From contig NZ_JAAGOX010000011.1 in the NCBI RefSeq assembly GCF_010500245.1, forward strand, positions 558,001-622,000: a stretch of 64,000 nucleotides of DNA, given 5' to 3'. The notes under the pieces were generated by a model. The model was not told where the DNA came from. It made no database searches and was given only the letters and a program-made list of their open reading frames with translations. Position 1 is the stretch's first letter, and every line of letters begins with the position of its first letter. This stretch comes from Ruegeria sp. PrR005. GTDB lineage: Bacteria > Pseudomonadota > Alphaproteobacteria > Rhodobacterales > Rhodobacteraceae. Below are positions 54,161 through 63,674 of the stretch, one piece after another. The position numbers and the translations under genes are program-made.

Positions 54161-54889
54161 TCACCCCCGGCCGACATATGCCATTGTCGTCGCCATCACT
54201 GTCATAAATAGAACGTTGGCATCGGCCGGCAGGCTGGCCATGTGCAGCACCGAGCGCGCGGCATCGGCAACACCCATTGTCGGATCCGGGTCGCGCCCCT
54301 GTTCCAACGCAGCCTTGTTCAGGCCCGCGACCATCTCGGTCCGAGCGTTGCCTATGTCGATCTGACCCGCCGCAACCCCATATCCCCGACCGTCCAAGGA
54401 CAGACTGCGGGTCAGCCCGGTGATGGCGTGTTTGGTCGCCGTATAGTGCACCGAGTTGGGCCGCGGCGCATGCGCGGCGATCGAACCGTTGTTGATGATC
54501 CGGCCGCCTTGAGGCTCTTGCCGCCGCATCCTGGCAAATGCCGCGCGTGCGCACAAAAACATCCCGTTCAGATTGACGTTCACCGAACGGAACCAGTCCT
54601 CCAGTGCAATCTCGTCGATGGTTCCGCCCGGCGCAAAGATCCCGGCGTTGTTGAACAGGACATCTAGTCGCCCGGCCTGCGTGCAGAACCGGTCAAACGC
54701 CGCCTCAACAGCCTCTGGATCGGTGACATCCGCGACCAGGGGAATGGCCCGCTCGTGACCATTGGCCAATGCGTCCAACAGATCGCCGCGCCGTGCCAAC
54801 ACTCCAACCGTCCACCCCTCGGCCAGGAACAATTCGGCCGTTGCCCTGCCAATGCCTGAACTGGCGCCGGTAATCAGAATGCTTTTCAC
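54161..54889 (-). CDS. SDR-family oxidoreductase
   Basis: 242 residues, classical SDR. Nucleotide site TGASSGIGRATAE, NNAG motif (LFNNAGIFAPGG), catalytic Ser (NNGSIAAH) and YTATK. The ATG overlaps the stop of the helicase gene (ATGA). Substrate unknown. Confidence 0.9.
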   Translation of the reverse strand: MKSILITGASSGIGRATAELFLAEGWTVGVLARRGDLLDALANGHERAIPLVADVTDPEAVEAAFDRFCTQAGRLDVLFNNAGIFAPGGTIDEIALEDWFRSVNVNLNGMFLCARAAFARMRRQEPQGGRIINNGSIAAHAPRPNSVHYTATKHAITGLTRSLSLDGRGYGVAAGQIDIGNARTEMVAGLNKAALEQGRDPDPTMGVADAARSVLHMASLPADANVLFMTVMATTMAYVGRG

Positions 54890-56421
54890 AGCGTGATCTC
54901 CTCTTCCAATCTCAGAACAGGCGCCTCTGCCTGTTTCAGATCATCCACTCGCAGGGGCTGTGTCGGCTTTGACAGCCGATTGCGCACCACCCAGATCAAC
55001 CGTTCCTGCGCCCGAGTGATCGCCACATAGGCAAGGCGCTTCCACAATGGCTGTCCCGCCTCAACCCGACCGGCGCGGGCAGCGGCAAAGATATCCGGGG
55101 CAAAAACCTGAACCGTATCCCATTGCGACCCTTGCGCCTTGTGTATGGTAACGGCCGCACCATGCAGAAACGTGGCCCCCATGCGGGCAGCAAAGGGGAT
55201 AAAGGGTTCTTCTTCGTCGGGTTTTTCGATTTTGACGATTGACGCCGCCGACACCTGAGGATCCTCAGCGCCCATCACATGCAGGCGCGAGAACCCCGGT
55301 TTGCGTCCCGGCCCGAGATAGATCACCTGCGCCCCCTTGATCAGCCCGCGCGCTTCAAGATCCAAGCGCTTTTTTCGGTGTTTGAGTGGCAGTTCAATCC
55401 CGTCGCAGATCAGCGGCTCGCCTTCCATCAGCTCTTGCTCGGGGGCGCCATAGACCGTTCGAAAGGCATTGATCAGACGAATGCGCGTCGCGTTGCGCCA
55501 GACCAGAACCGGACTGCGGGCCATCAGATCGACTTCGACCCTTTGTCCCCAGACAACACGCTCGTCCTGGCGGGCCTTCTCCTCGACAATATGCTCGAAG
55601 GTCTCGAAATCGACCTGCGGATCCGCCAGCGCATGGGCAAGGTCCAGGATCGGGCTATCCGCTTCCTGCCGGTGAATACGGCTCAGGTTCAGCTTTCGGG
55701 GTTCGGGCAACTGGTCAAACACCATCGAACCCGACTGGTTCACCGGCGCCAGCTGTGCCGGATCCCCAAACAGGACCAATGTCGGGAAAATCTCTTTCAG
55801 GTCCTCGAACTGCCGGTCATCCAGCATCGACGCCTCGTCGATGAACCCGATGTCCAACGGCTCATCTCGCCGCTTCCACCCGGTAATGAAGTCAGACCCC
55901 CGCAGCCCAGCGGCCGCAAGCGCGCCGGGAATCGAACTGTTGCGGGCATAAAACGCAGCCGCCCGGTCGAGCGACTCTTCACTCAGACCCTCCACCTCGG
56001 GGCGCTCGCCATTTCCGGCAAGCCATTCGGCGATCCGTTCGTAATCGGGGTCATAGACCGGGGTATAGAGAATTCGGTGAATCGTGGTTGCCGGGACCCC
56101 ACGCAGACGCAGCACGCTGGCGGCCTTGTTGGTGGGCGCCAGTATCGCTAGCGTGCGCCGGTCCTTGCTCTTGCGGCCTTCGTAGTCTCCGGACACGACC
56201 TGCACACCGGCTTGTGTCAGAGCCTTGCACAGCTCGGCCAGCAGCATCGTTTTTCCCGACCCCGCCTTGCCGATGACAGCCATCACGCCCGTTGCGCCGC
56301 CTTCCGGAGGGCGCAACAGAGAATCATCATCCAGGTCGACGCCCGCCGCTTGGAGCAGCTCGGCGATAGCGTCATATGCACTGGCCTGGTCGTCGGAATA
56401 GGTGACCGCGTTCATTGTCAT
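54886..56421 (-). CDS. ATP-dependent RecD-like DNA helicase (SF1B)
   Basis: 511 residues. Walker A VIGKAGSGKTMLLAEL, motif Ia APTNKAASVLR, Walker B FIDEASMLDD, motif III LFGDPAQLAPV and C-terminal motifs VTIHKAQGSQWD and YVAITRAQERL, all of the RecD2/Dda-like SF1B 5'-3' helicases. Shorter than full RecD2, lacking its N-terminal extension. It lies 60 bases downstream of luxI on the same strand. A role in replication restart or repair is expected. Confidence 0.92.
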   Translation of the reverse strand: MTMNAVTYSDDQASAYDAIAELLQAAGVDLDDDSLLRPPEGGATGVMAVIGKAGSGKTMLLAELCKALTQAGVQVVSGDYEGRKSKDRRTLAILAPTNKAASVLRLRGVPATTIHRILYTPVYDPDYERIAEWLAGNGERPEVEGLSEESLDRAAAFYARNSSIPGALAAAGLRGSDFITGWKRRDEPLDIGFIDEASMLDDRQFEDLKEIFPTLVLFGDPAQLAPVNQSGSMVFDQLPEPRKLNLSRIHRQEADSPILDLAHALADPQVDFETFEHIVEEKARQDERVVWGQRVEVDLMARSPVLVWRNATRIRLINAFRTVYGAPEQELMEGEPLICDGIELPLKHRKKRLDLEARGLIKGAQVIYLGPGRKPGFSRLHVMGAEDPQVSAASIVKIEKPDEEEPFIPFAARMGATFLHGAAVTIHKAQGSQWDTVQVFAPDIFAAARAGRVEAGQPLWKRLAYVAITRAQERLIWVVRNRLSKPTQPLRVDDLKQAEAPVLRLEEEITL

Positions 56422-56481: not shown

Positions 56482-57120
56482 TTACGCCGTCCGCAGTTTC
56501 CGGCGCTGCCGATCCGTCCCGAATGCCGCATTGAACCACATGCGCGACAGCTCACGCGATACACCCGCACGCGCCGCTACACGCTCGCAATCCGCCGGAG
56601 AATAAGGCCACAAACCGACGTAGACCCGATTGCGGCCCTCGCCTTCACTCCCCAGCACCTCGGGCGAGGATCCGATCAACCGGTAGATGCGGATCATCCG
56701 GTCGTCGAACACGCCCGCAATATGGGTCAATCCGAACCCTTCCATCACCTCGCCACCACTCAGCATGATCGCGCCCGCGACGATCGAACTGGCCCGACGT
56801 GACAGACAGAACCGTGTCACCTCCCAGATCAGCGGGCTGCAAATCGGGCTGCCGCCGGTCAGGTGACCAAACACATCGTTGATCATGACCGGCCCGGTCG
56901 TGGGCAGAAACCGCATTGAGCCACCGTGACTGCCATCCGGTTCTTCCCAGATCACGTAAAGCGGGTTCAGGTCGTCGTACTGATCACGCTCTTCTCCCGC
57001 CTCGCTGACGTCGACATCCCATCCAAGGCGTGTCTTGAATTGGTCGGCGCGGTCCAAGAACATCGACCTCGCCAGTTTGGGAAATCTGTGCAACTCGTCC
57101 GCATATAAATACCGCAGCAT
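56482..57120 (-). CDS. Acyl-homoserine-lactone synthase (LuxI family)
   Basis: 212 residues. Conserved LuxI residues are present: the R-F-W of DRADQFKTRLGW, the Asp pair in DQYDD, GSMRFLPTTGP with its Arg, and WEVTRFC with Glu and Arg. It makes an N-acyl-homoserine lactone from SAM and an acyl carrier. The acyl chain length cannot be read from sequence. It lies downstream of luxR on the same strand, with 85 bases between. AAGGGGAAAA serves as ribosome site. Confidence 0.95.
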   Translation of the reverse strand: MLRYLYADELHRFPKLARSMFLDRADQFKTRLGWDVDVSEAGEERDQYDDLNPLYVIWEEPDGSHGGSMRFLPTTGPVMINDVFGHLTGGSPICSPLIWEVTRFCLSRRASSIVAGAIMLSGGEVMEGFGLTHIAGVFDDRMIRIYRLIGSSPEVLGSEGEGRNRVYVGLWPYSPADCERVAARAGVSRELSRMWFNAAFGTDRQRRKLRTA

Positions 57121-57161: not shown

Positions 57162-57205
57162 TACATAGGATTGGTTAATATCTGGTCAGCAAACCGTTCA
57201 CCCGG

Positions 57206-57925
57206 TTAAACGACGATCAACCCGCGACTCATCGCCGTTGCTATCGCGTGGGTTGTGTTCAGGGCGCCAAGTTTGAAGCGCGCGCTTTCGATGTAGACGC
57301 GCAAGGTATGCTCCGAGATCGACAGGGAATGTGCGACCTGAGCCCGGTTGTACCCCAGGGCCAACAGGGTCATCGCGTCGACCTCTCTGGGGGACAGGGT
57401 GCGCGAGAATTCAGGCTGCCGGTTGGCTTCGAATTCCAGGGCCTTGCGGTTGAAGTAATGCGCGATCAGGATCAGATCCCGTGAATAGGTCGCAGTAAAA
57501 TCGGACCAGGTCGAGTCGTCACAAGAGTTGTTGACGGTAAAAAGGGCAAACTGACCGTTCGGACCCCGGATCGGGATAGAGAACCCCTGGTTGCCGACTC
57601 CATGTTCCATCGCGTCCTTCAGAAACGCTTTGGCCGCCTTGCCGGACCAGTCCAACCGTTTCCAATCGACCGGATGAAACCTTTGGAAACAGCCAAGAAT
57701 GACCGGATCAATCCGATGGTAGTTTTGGGTTAGATAGCGATCCACCCAGGATTGCGGATAGGTTGTACACCCGTATTGATCGCCGGCACTGTCCACCCAG
57801 TGATAGACGATGTGATCGATACCAAGTGTGTCGCGCAACCGCCTGTTGGTCTGCTCCAGCCCGTCAAGCGCGCTGGCAGCGTCCAGTTCCTCCAGGATGG
57901 GTTCCAAATCGACCTTTCCGCCCAT
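57206..57925 (-). CDS. LuxR-family autoinducer-responsive regulator
   Basis: 239 residues from ATG 57925; a start at 57976 would add 17 residues without family match. The N-terminal autoinducer-binding domain has YPQSWVDRYLTQNYHRIDPV, with the usual Trp, Tyr and Asp of the ligand pocket. The C-terminal GerE helix-turn-helix is LSPREVDAMTLLALGYNRAQ to HTLRVYIESARFKLGA. It senses the lactone made by luxI. Its first 62 bases overlap the end of the small ORF upstream. Confidence 0.94.
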   Translation of the reverse strand: MGGKVDLEPILEELDAASALDGLEQTNRRLRDTLGIDHIVYHWVDSAGDQYGCTTYPQSWVDRYLTQNYHRIDPVILGCFQRFHPVDWKRLDWSGKAAKAFLKDAMEHGVGNQGFSIPIRGPNGQFALFTVNNSCDDSTWSDFTATYSRDLILIAHYFNRKALEFEANRQPEFSRTLSPREVDAMTLLALGYNRAQVAHSLSISEHTLRVYIESARFKLGALNTTHAIATAMSRGLIVV

Positions 57926-58082
57926 TTGCAAGCGCCAACGCCTCTTCGTGCTTGGACGCGATTTCGGCGGCGGCAATCAGCTTGGTGTCATCAAGCTGTT
58001 CTGCAAGCGCGTTCAGACCATTCGCAGTCGCGAAAGATTTGAGGTCCGACAGTACGTCCAGGATCCATTCATTATGTTGCAC
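57864..58082 (-). CDS. Small unrecognised ORF upstream of and overlapping luxR (72 aa)
   Basis: GTG 58082 follows GGGGAGAG at six bases. The product starts MQHNEWILDVLSDLKSFA and is acidic-amphipathic helical up to about residue 53 (LAEQLDDTKLIAAAEIASKH), then basic and Gly-rich where it overlaps luxR. I do not recognise a family with known function, although I recall similar short proteins beside roseobacter luxR genes. The ribosome site, helical composition and overlap with luxR argue for a real, co-translated gene. Confidence 0.68.
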   Translation of the reverse strand: MQHNEWILDVLSDLKSFATANGLNALAEQLDDTKLIAAAEIASKHEEALALANGRKGRFGTHPGGTGRCQRA

Positions 58083-58101
58083 CAGACTCTCCCCGAAATG
58101 A

Positions 58102-58116
58102 TTAACGAAGCGTTAA
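58102..58116 (-). promoter_or_regulatory. CtrA-type box TTAA-N7-TTAA before the luxR unit
   Basis: TTAACGAAGCGTTAA is both a perfect TTAA-N7-TTAA and a palindrome (TTAACG-AAG-CGTTAA), 20 bases before the small ORF start. A TATAGT -10 (minus strand, 58126-58121) puts it across the likely start site. A further TTAA (58143-58146) lies near the -35. CtrA binding is inferred from the consensus. Confidence 0.6.
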
Positions 58117-58230
58117 CTCAACTATAGCATGTGCTGCTTCCGTTAAGAAATTCACTGGTTTCCACTCCCCAAAAATAGCGAGGCAGGTGTTTGCAAGTCT
58201 CTGAAACCGCAAAGCTTGGGCAGAATCTGA

Positions 58231-58293: not shown

Positions 58294-59580
58294 TCAGCCG
58301 CGAGAGTCGAGGACCTCTTCCAAAGTCCGCAGGCCGGTGCGCGGCGACTGGACCAGAACCGACATGTTGCCGGGTTTGTGCTCGTTGCGCATCATCTTCA
58401 TATGCGCCTCAGGCAGATCGTTCCAGGTGAACACTTCGGACATGCACGGATCAAGCCGGCGCTCCAGCATCAGCCGGTTGGCGGCGGCCGCCTGCTTGAG
58501 ATGGGCAAAGTGCGAACCCTGCAAGCGCTTCTGGTGCATCCACATGTACCGCACATCAAAGGTACAGTTGAACCCGCTGGTCCCGGCGCAGATCACCACC
58601 ATGCCGCCCTTTTTCACCACCAGCGACGACACGGGGAAGGTCGCCTCGCCCGGGTGTTCGAAGACCATGTCGACGCTCACACCCTTGCCGGTGATATCCC
58701 AGATCGCCTTGCCGAACTTGCGCGCCTCTTTCAGCCACTCGGCATATTCCGGTGTGTTGACGGTCGGCAGCTGACCCCAGCATTTGAAGTCCTTGCGGTT
58801 GATCACGCCCTTGGCGCCCAACCCCATGACGAAATCGCGCTTGTCTTCGTCCGAGATCACGCCGATCGCATTGGCGCCTGCGGTATTGATCAACTGGATC
58901 GCATAAGAACCCAGACCGCCCGACGCGCCCCAGACCAGAACGTTCTGCCCCGGTTGCAGGTCATGCGGCGGGTGGCCAAACAGCATCCGGTAGGCGGTGG
59001 CAAGCGTCAGCGTGTAGCAGGCGCTTTCTTCCCAGGTCAGGTGCTTGGGGCGCGGCATCAGCTGCTGCGCCTGCACGCGGGTGAACTGGGCAAACGACCC
59101 GTCGGGGGTCTCATAGCCCCAGATCCGCTGGCTGGGCGAATACATCGGATCGCCGCCGTTGCATTCCTCGTCGTCGCCATCATCCTGGTTGCAGTGGATC
59201 ACGACCTCGTCGCCGACCTTCCAGCGCTTGACCTTGTCGCCCACGGCCCAGACGATGCCCGAGGCATCGGAACCGGCAATGTGATAGGGTTGCTTGTGGC
59301 CGTCAAAGGGGCTGATGGGCTTGCCCAGGGCCGCCCAGACGCCGTTATAGTTGACGCCTGCGGCCATCACCAGCACCAGAACGTCATGGCTGTCGAGCAC
59401 CGGGATATCCACGACTTCCTGCTGCATCGCGGTATTGGGTTCGCCGTGCCGTTCCTTGCGGATCGCCCAAGCATACATCTTCTTGGGCACAAACCCCAGC
59501 GGGGGGATTTCACCCATTTCATAGAGGTCTTTCTCGGGCGCCTCGTAGGACGCGATGCCGCTGTCGGTATCCAAAGCCAT
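58294..59580 (-). CDS. ccr: Crotonyl-CoA carboxylase/reductase
   Basis: 428 residues from ATG 59580 after AAAGGAGG. A medium-chain dehydrogenase with GroES-like half (GSDASGIVWAVGDKVKRW) and NADPH site VWGASGGLGSYA; the characteristic CNQDDGDDEECNGGDPM and GVNYNGVWAALGKPI are seen in Ccr. It reductively carboxylates crotonyl-CoA to ethylmalonyl-CoA, the key step of the ethylmalonyl-CoA pathway for acetate assimilation. The mutase gene ecm lies 1.7 kb away. Confidence 0.97.
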   Translation of the reverse strand: MALDTDSGIASYEAPEKDLYEMGEIPPLGFVPKKMYAWAIRKERHGEPNTAMQQEVVDIPVLDSHDVLVLVMAAGVNYNGVWAALGKPISPFDGHKQPYHIAGSDASGIVWAVGDKVKRWKVGDEVVIHCNQDDGDDEECNGGDPMYSPSQRIWGYETPDGSFAQFTRVQAQQLMPRPKHLTWEESACYTLTLATAYRMLFGHPPHDLQPGQNVLVWGASGGLGSYAIQLINTAGANAIGVISDEDKRDFVMGLGAKGVINRKDFKCWGQLPTVNTPEYAEWLKEARKFGKAIWDITGKGVSVDMVFEHPGEATFPVSSLVVKKGGMVVICAGTSGFNCTFDVRYMWMHQKRLQGSHFAHLKQAAAANRLMLERRLDPCMSEVFTWNDLPEAHMKMMRNEHKPGNMSVLVQSPRTGLRTLEEVLDSRG

Positions 59581-59688
59581 CTCGGCCTCCTTTATCAAGT
59601 CATTGCCGCAATGCAGAATCGCGGCCCTGAGGATGAAGTACTAACGAGTGCGCAACATTGCAACAGCATTCGGCATCATTTTGTAATT

Positions 59689-63278: not shown

Positions 63279-63293
63279 TTAAACTGTGCTTAA
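63279..63293 (+). promoter_or_regulatory. CtrA-type box TTAA-N7-TTAA before the H-NS-like gene
   Basis: A second perfect TTAA-N7-TTAA (TTAA at 63279-63282 and 63290-63293), 64 bases before the ATG. It abuts the palindrome that follows. Consensus match only. Confidence 0.55.
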
Positions 63294-63356: not shown

Positions 63357-63674
63357 ATGGGAATCGACCTTACCGGCATGTCTCGTAAGGAACTGGTAGC
63401 GCTTCGGGCGAAACTGGATTCAGCGATAAAAGAAGCCGAACAAAAGGAACGGCAGGAAGCCCTGAAAGCCGCCGAGAAGGCCGCGGCCGAATTCGGCTTT
63501 TCTCTGGCAGAGTTGGCCAGCGAGCCGCGCAAGTCGACAAAGGGAACCAAAGCGACAGCGAAATACCGCAACCCTGCCGACCCGGAACAGACCTGGTCGG
63601 GCCGCGGGCGGAAACCCCAGTGGATTCACGACGCCCTCCATTCCGGTGCCGATATTTCCGATCTGGAAATCTGA
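63357..63674 (+). CDS. H-NS/HvrA-family nucleoid protein
   Basis: 105 residues. A coiled-coil oligomerisation part (LVALRAKLDSAIKEAEQKER, about 10-45) and the C-terminal DNA-binding core (YRNPADPEQTWSGRGRKPQW). The family includes HvrA of Rhodobacter capsulatus, which regulates photosynthesis and nitrogen-fixation genes. Here it probably compacts DNA and silences AT-rich genes. A CtrA-type box and palindrome lie in its promoter. Confidence 0.93.
   Translation: MGIDLTGMSRKELVALRAKLDSAIKEAEQKERQEALKAAEKAAAEFGFSLAELASEPRKSTKGTKATAKYRNPADPEQTWSGRGRKPQWIHDALHSGADISDLEI

Follow-up and report, generated by a model that had tools for sequence, protein, structure and literature searches.

The promoter of a quorum-sensing luxR operon in Ruegeria sp. 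PrR005 carries a palindromic TTAA-N7-TTAA box that matches the full-site consensus of CtrA, recurs at one place before orthologous luxR genes across much of the family, and covers the predicted transcription start. We consider it quite probable that this box is a CtrA operator at the promoter of a luxR operon of topology B1, by which the second AHL system (QS2) would come under the CckA-ChpT-CtrA phosphorelay; this judgement leaves aside the sign of the control. The link between CtrA and luxR2 is already in print for Dinoroseobacter shibae (PMC4046655), and the finding is largely anticipated by what is reported there. Judging from the sequence comparisons, what is new is that the box is widespread, fixed in place and situated over the predicted start, and that a TTAACC motif recurs before luxI. 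The literature searched, as far as its text was available and with few subscription papers included, yielded no earlier report of the box being widespread at one place or lying over the start.

The box and the operon behind it

The window (the whole stretch of 64,000 nucleotides analysed) contains the following elements at this locus:

58102..58116, minus strand: TTAA-N7-TTAA box TTAACGCTTCGTTAA, CtrA full-site consensus, predicted to occupy about +1 to +15
58294..59598, minus strand: ccr, crotonyl-CoA carboxylase/reductase, synteny marker of topology B (TIGR01751, 614.6 bits, cut-off 378.55)
57864..58082, minus strand: small ORF of 72 aa with a GTG start, overlapping the start of luxR by about 60 nt
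57206..57925, minus strand: luxR, autoinducer-binding LuxR-type regulator of topology B1 (SsbR/LuxR2 type), assigned by PF03472 (E 1.8e-39), PF00196 (E 6.2e-10) and synteny
57173..57178, minus strand: TTAACC, of the CtrA half-site type, between luxR and luxI
56482..57120, minus strand: luxI, AHL synthase (PF00765, E 4.4e-24)
54886-56421: helicase-type ATPase (PF13604, PF13538)
54161-54889: short-chain dehydrogenase (SDR; PF00106)

A sequence-only reading of this DNA had claimed a palindromic TTAA-N7-TTAA match before the small ORF and luxR, and the box is indeed found there, as TTAACGAAGCGTTAA in the window, 19 nt upstream of the small-ORF start codon. On the coding strand it reads TTAACGCTTCGTTAA, with arms TTAACG and CGTTAA that form a perfect palindrome around a 3-base centre; in the source genome it is followed 3' by T on the coding strand and by C on the opposite one. 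That reading had also expected about 0.1 such sites per 64 kb, which is close to the genome-wide density of about 0.14 per 64 kb (11 occurrences of TTAAN7TTAA in 5.07 Mb). The window holds two, against a mean of 0.05 in dinucleotide shuffles, and two were reached in 0 of 100 shuffles. The count of two therefore stood, but the assertion that both lie in promoters held less well: one is conserved, while the other (63279-63293), before an H-NS-type gene at 63357-63674, is missing before the same gene in all four same-genus genomes read and is for that reason probably incidental. The LexA motif is GTTC-N7-GTTC, and a LexA reading of the luxR box was dropped because the fourth base does not fit.

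The gene order ccr, small ORF, luxR, luxI, helicase and short-chain dehydrogenase is that of topology B1. According to the available text of PMC3824088, the B1 members include RKLH11_1933/260 of KLH11 (named ssbRI), DSHI_2852/2851 of D. shibae (luxR2I2) and PGA1_c03880/90; SsaRI belongs to topology A and DSHI_0311/0312 (LuxR1I1) to topology C. Among the named loci compared here, ccr precedes luxR in 79 of 80, the exception (L129) having just 339 nt upstream of luxR present, and the helicase gene follows in 77 of 80. The KLH11 locus (L140) has ccr before luxR, then luxI and the helicase gene, the same B1 order for these four genes. The pair PGA1_c03880/90 we take to be pgaRI. Orthology of the window's luxR with SsaR was not found: the locus and its KLH11 counterpart share B1 synteny, the B1 pair of KLH11 is ssbRI, and the KLH11 table in the accessible part of PMC3824088, together with synteny, points away from an SsaR ortholog. 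The other luxRI pair found in the genome, with a LuxR of 33% identity, lacks TTAAN7TTAA throughout its 3.6-kb locus.

This identity bears on the suggestion that a CtrA site at luxR would close a feedback loop, which we reject because the locus is of the SsbRI/LuxR2I2 type, whereas it is SsaRI and LuxR1I1 that have been shown to act above CtrA. The site therefore extends a cascade from QS1 through CtrA to QS2; a loop would need QS2 to act back on CtrA, and the accessible text of the literature consulted on the cascade holds no report of such an action.

The small ORF behaves as a real gene. Its start is ATG in the listed relatives, and its protein is conserved (14 sequences aligned) and 68-73 aa long among relatives, with a pN/pS of 0.26 over codons 1-45 (12 sequences) and one match in each of the five genus genomes; no Pfam family matched it. 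The model is a two-helix hairpin with a mean pLDDT of 78.6, for which a fold search against the PDB returned a best E of 3.3. In the 75 named loci that bear the box, the ORF extends beyond the aligned luxR start by 35-65 nt; the overlap suggests coupled translation, and the protein could act on LuxR.

Conservation of the box and anatomy of the promoter

The luxR of the B1 locus was found at E <= 1e-50 in 228 of 394 family genomes (166 without), and upstream DNA was taken from 140 of these 228 and from two same-genus genomes, mostly in listing order with some skipped, a sample that is not random. For the named loci, the best 80 among 552 relatives were used, 40 of these 80 being labelled Ruegeria; the two sets share some strains (e.g., L065/G003 and L066/G001), so they are counted apart. 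In 103 of 142 family genomes, and likewise in 75 of 80 named loci (178 of 222 together), the box is found 185-235 nt upstream of the orthologous luxR, a range that was fixed after the positions were known. It is present in 30 of the 32 best-match genomes and in 73 of the 110 others. No TTAAN7TTAA occurs outside this place in the 154,241 nt of upstream DNA (222 regions), and base shuffles of the last 250 nt before luxR placed a box in 0.11 of the 222 regions on average and in 2 at most. On the coding strand, the box is followed by C in 94 of the 103 box-bearing genomes, which fits TTAA-N7-TTAAC.

All five genomes of the genus keep the box, and it is present in KLH11 (L140), a R. pomeroyi strain (L066) and Phaeobacter marinintestinus (L097). 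At D. shibae luxR2 (G036; L200), a gene likewise behind ccr, TTAA-N7-TTAAC stands at the same place; G036 is presumably D. shibae DFL 12. It is absent from Phaeobacter sp. QD34_24 (L118) and a Pseudophaeobacter MAG (L092), where ccr, luxI and the helicase gene are still in place. The sequence-only reading had named conservation in roseobacters as a check, and the recurrence of the box at one position in both sets, together with the genes near other sites of the genus described below, strongly supports its CtrA-type box before the small ORF and luxR. That the box should be a chance match, or a functionless remnant in the source genome, we hold to be highly improbable: the sites have been called scattered by Wang et al. 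(PMC4046655, in the text available), and some lineages have no box, but its recurrence at a single position, set against the shuffled mean, and its retention throughout the genus speak strongly to the contrary.

The link between CtrA and the luxR box appears nonetheless to be dispensable, since the perfect box is missing in 39 of 142 genomes, 38 of which are among the 78 tested for CtrA, and all 78 gave a CtrA match; the presence of ctrA and that of the box consequently offer no contrast. One tree for the box gave 10 changes on 89 rows, with L035 misoriented, and a second gave 4 changes on 112 rows, only 9 of them box-lacking. In one genome (G209, locus L284) ctrA has an apparent reading-frame break in its DNA-binding domain, and in another (G082, locus L285) a short ctrA ends near the contig end; in each, the luxR box has one mismatch. 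These two boxes are no evidence, because 38 of 78 genomes lack a perfect box anyway.

Three further elements lie upstream of the box in the window:

58121..58129, minus strand: extended -10-like element TGCTATAGT; TANNNT at the same spacing in 84 of 102 genomes, with TG at the extended position in 79
58147..58152, minus strand: AATTTC, a weak GAATTT-like block at the -35 position, moderately conserved, box -36 to -31
58165..58183, minus strand: imperfect dyad CCTCGCTATTTTTGGGGAG, candidate site for a LuxR-type regulator, centred about 60 bp before the predicted start

In a box-anchored alignment of 102 genomes (all 103 with the box except L035), where invariant TTAA blocks are a consequence of row selection, the order from 5' to 3' is a GGGGRR-ended dyad, the GAATTT block, the extended -10, the box, a purine-rich leader and the small-ORF start codon, the last of these following the start of the box by 25-38 nt in 99 of 102 genomes. 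The box lies directly 3' of the extended -10 and is thus predicted to cover the start. The earlier claim that it covers the likely start agrees with the minus-strand -10-like element 4 bases before it; a further TTAA near the -35, also claimed, is present at 58143-58146 but is not conserved, relatives having mostly GAATTTC or CTAAC. The spacer of the box tends to TTC(G/A) across the 102 genomes. The dyad spans about -67 to -48 from the box start, and 90 of 102 genomes have GGGGRR between -55 and -47 relative to the box; near-perfect dyads occur in L186, L227 and L230, with the form CTCCCC...GGGGAG in L186 and L230. The dyad at 58165-58183 is a candidate site for autoregulation by LuxR.

A similar -10 region is retained in at least five orthologs that lack the box (L170, L172, L177, L185 and L198), and for this reason the box appears to be a separable operator. 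A motif search for the -10 region found it in 11 of the 40 rows scored as box-lacking, one of which is the misoriented L035.

Between luxR and luxI, TTAACC occurs within 110 nt downstream of luxR in 81 of 121 loci, against 2.8 expected by shuffling, most commonly 26-27 nt after the luxR stop (62 of the 81), and the exact half-site TTAACCAT precedes luxI in 29 of 121, against 0.2 expected. These intergenic regions are those of all 80 named loci and of 41 of the 62 genome loci tried. A conserved GTACCCCCTTTGTTCC follows TTAACC in the named loci; D. shibae has TTAACC between luxR and luxI at a different distance. The luxR box and TTAAC before luxI were associated by Fisher's test (p 0.007) on 112 rows, that is, the 142 loci with luxR coding DNA minus 30 whose LuxR escaped the motif filter; phylogenetically independent pairs gave no significant association.

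CtrA and other sites of its type

CtrA is encoded in the genome (NCBIfam NF045991, 427 bits, cut-off 350), and its DNA-binding segment LTGKEYQ...KLRKKL is identical to that of Caulobacter CtrA, with 82 of 97 residues identical over the part of the domain compared. Other TTAAN7TTAA sites were followed in 20 stretches, 9 in the source genome and 11 in two relatives. The genes near them encode CckA (NF046020, E 1.3e-157, under its own cut-off), a PAS_5 protein that adjoins yicC and has a sub-cut-off match to MopJ (E 3.1e-11), a PAS_7 protein, a glycosyltransferase with a c-di-GMP-binding domain, RpoH, a FecR/cadherin-like adhesin adjoining a CHASE2 cyclase and, in the two relatives, a Tad-domain protein. 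As far as the text at hand goes, MopJ acts on CtrA in Caulobacter (PMC4432633) and the CtrA regulon of D. shibae includes Tad pili (PMC7232146). The copies at the PAS_5 gene in G000 and G001, TTAACCATTC(A/G)TTAA, resemble the luxR box, and the copy in G004, TTAACGATTGGTTAA, does so less. Four of the nine further sites of the source genome are without a recognised CtrA-pathway gene, one of them being near a resolvase gene and one beside an ORF that no Pfam family matches. At the ctrA promoters of the five genus genomes, perfect full sites are absent and at most one-mismatch sites occur.

An identical 15-mer, TTAAGCTTCGATTAA, precedes rpoH in L155 and L163, and the same 15-mer is found in G002 and G004; CtrA or another regulator might control the heat-shock sigma factor.

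A regulator other than CtrA, reading TTAAC-N5-GTTAA and represented, for example, by an unstudied operon-specific repressor, is in our estimation unlikely to account for the luxR box. The partly conserved TTC(G/A) spacer, which exceeds what an N7 consensus needs, speaks for it, and so does cckA of KLH11, where a full site is present and gives no response to CtrA (PMC3692519, in its available text): there the site did not predict CtrA control, and a perfect site is consequently no proof of it. On the other hand, 15-mers of this type also lie near genes of the CtrA pathway within the genus, the exact half-site appears again before luxI far above expectation, and ctrA is needed for luxR2I2 in D. 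shibae, according to the portions of PMC4046655 available. A CtrA operator remains the reading we prefer.

The sign of the control and comparison with known systems

In the mechanism we propose, CtrA is raised by the first AHL system, which is SsaRI in Ruegeria KLH11 and LuxR1I1 in Dinoroseobacter, as shown there by others; CtrA~P would then bind both the full box in the promoter of the luxR operon and the half-site that precedes luxI, and the output of the second AHL system would change, net activation being shown in D. shibae only. At the full box CtrA would restrain the luxR-operon promoter, and the net CtrA-dependence in D. shibae would arise via another input, possibly the luxI half-site together with LuxR autoactivation. 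To this combination, restraint from the full box and a positive input elsewhere, we give an even chance, and we favour it over direct activation. We consider restraint the likelier effect because the predicted start of the extended -10 promoter falls within the box. In Caulobacter, full CtrA sites near -35 activate and half-sites over the -10 repress (PMC4287350, as far as its text is available), from which a box at about +1 should restrain its promoter; an activating full site would have its 5' end near -35, compared with a predicted position of about +1 here.

This repressor-like position conflicts with published activation in D. shibae. The available text on that species reports that mutants of ctrA, cckA and chpT have strongly reduced expression of luxR2I2, with luxR1I1 unchanged, that ctrA expression is reduced in a luxI1 mutant (both PMC4046655), and that luxR2I2 rises 20 min after AHL addition, after ctrA (PMC4046655, PMC6473078). 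The box may accordingly be a conventional activating CtrA site, in line with Wang et al., with a start about 35-40 nt after the box start and with the -10-like element not being the main promoter; this we regard as a serious possibility, if a less probable one. The D. shibae mutants and time course argue for it, and a canonical -10 may be dispensable, given that the mapped CtrA promoters of R. sphaeroides have as invariants just A at -11 and G at -4 (PMC6180460, in the text available). Against it, TANNNT at box +18 to +39 occurs in 3 of 102 genomes where 27 are expected by shuffling, whereas the TANNNT upstream of the box is conserved; moreover, the start would fall at the small-ORF start codon and omit the conserved purine-rich leader. 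In the literature searched, which covered few subscription papers and some sources in part, neither a mapped start site of the luxR operon nor a roseobacter CtrA ChIP was found.

The preferred reading, restraint with a positive input elsewhere, meets difficulties of its own in KLH11. There, ctrA expression is about 25-fold lower without SsaI or SsaR (PMC3692519), and ssaI mutants have no detectable AHLs, those of the wild type coming mainly from SsbI or SscI (PMC3907830), a loss that fits a cascade from QS1 through CtrA to QS2. The review passages available state, in turn, that SsbR does not activate ssbI and that neither ssbI nor sscI is regulated by SsaR or SsbR (PMC3907830), which does not fit simply: as far as this text goes, it weighs against autoactivation by LuxR at luxI; it weighs against the cascade at ssbI as well, provided that CtrA was present in that test. 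A push-pull arrangement, in which CtrA would activate luxI from the half-site and block the luxR-operon start from the full box, we rate as rather improbable. Were it true, a high-CtrA cell would send signal strongly while limiting its receiver, and this arrangement would have been kept across much of the family.

A CtrA operator at this position would supply the DNA link of a cascade, observed by genetics in D. shibae and suggested for Ruegeria KLH11, whereby CtrA is switched on by one AHL system and in turn sets another. This could be a reason why KLH11 needs SsaI for signals derived from SsbI. The idea of a loop is corrected by this reading, and the placement of the box over the predicted start makes the choice between activation and restraint of the operon by CtrA testable.

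Among the systems described, the roseobacter B1 luxRI pairs of Cude and Buchan (2013; PMC3824088) resemble the window in having ccr before them and the helicase and short-chain dehydrogenase genes after them; a promoter analysis and a small ORF before luxR are absent from the description in the text available. The closest counterpart is luxR2I2 of D. shibae, whose orthologous luxR, behind ccr, has TTAA-N7-TTAAC at the same place as in the window. Wang et al. (2014) reported two perfect CtrA sites at this luxR2 (PMC4046655, as above), whereas a single TTAAN7TTAA was found within 700 nt of the gene, with C after it on both strands, and the reported pair may be a single palindrome counted once per strand. 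For R. pomeroyi and R. litoralis the same authors predicted sites at luxR/luxI pairs; they viewed such sites as scattered, independently evolved and activating (PMC4046655, same text); those described here differ in being common across much of the family, fixed in place and over the predicted start, a link widespread at one position rather than scattered. Finally, the ctrA promoters P1, P2 and P3 of Caulobacter offer a precedent for a CtrA box whose effect depends on position, as proposed here: in the available account (PMC4287350), one full box lies at -39 of P2 and at -14 of P3, whereas in the window a full box stands at about +1 of the sole promoter-like element seen.
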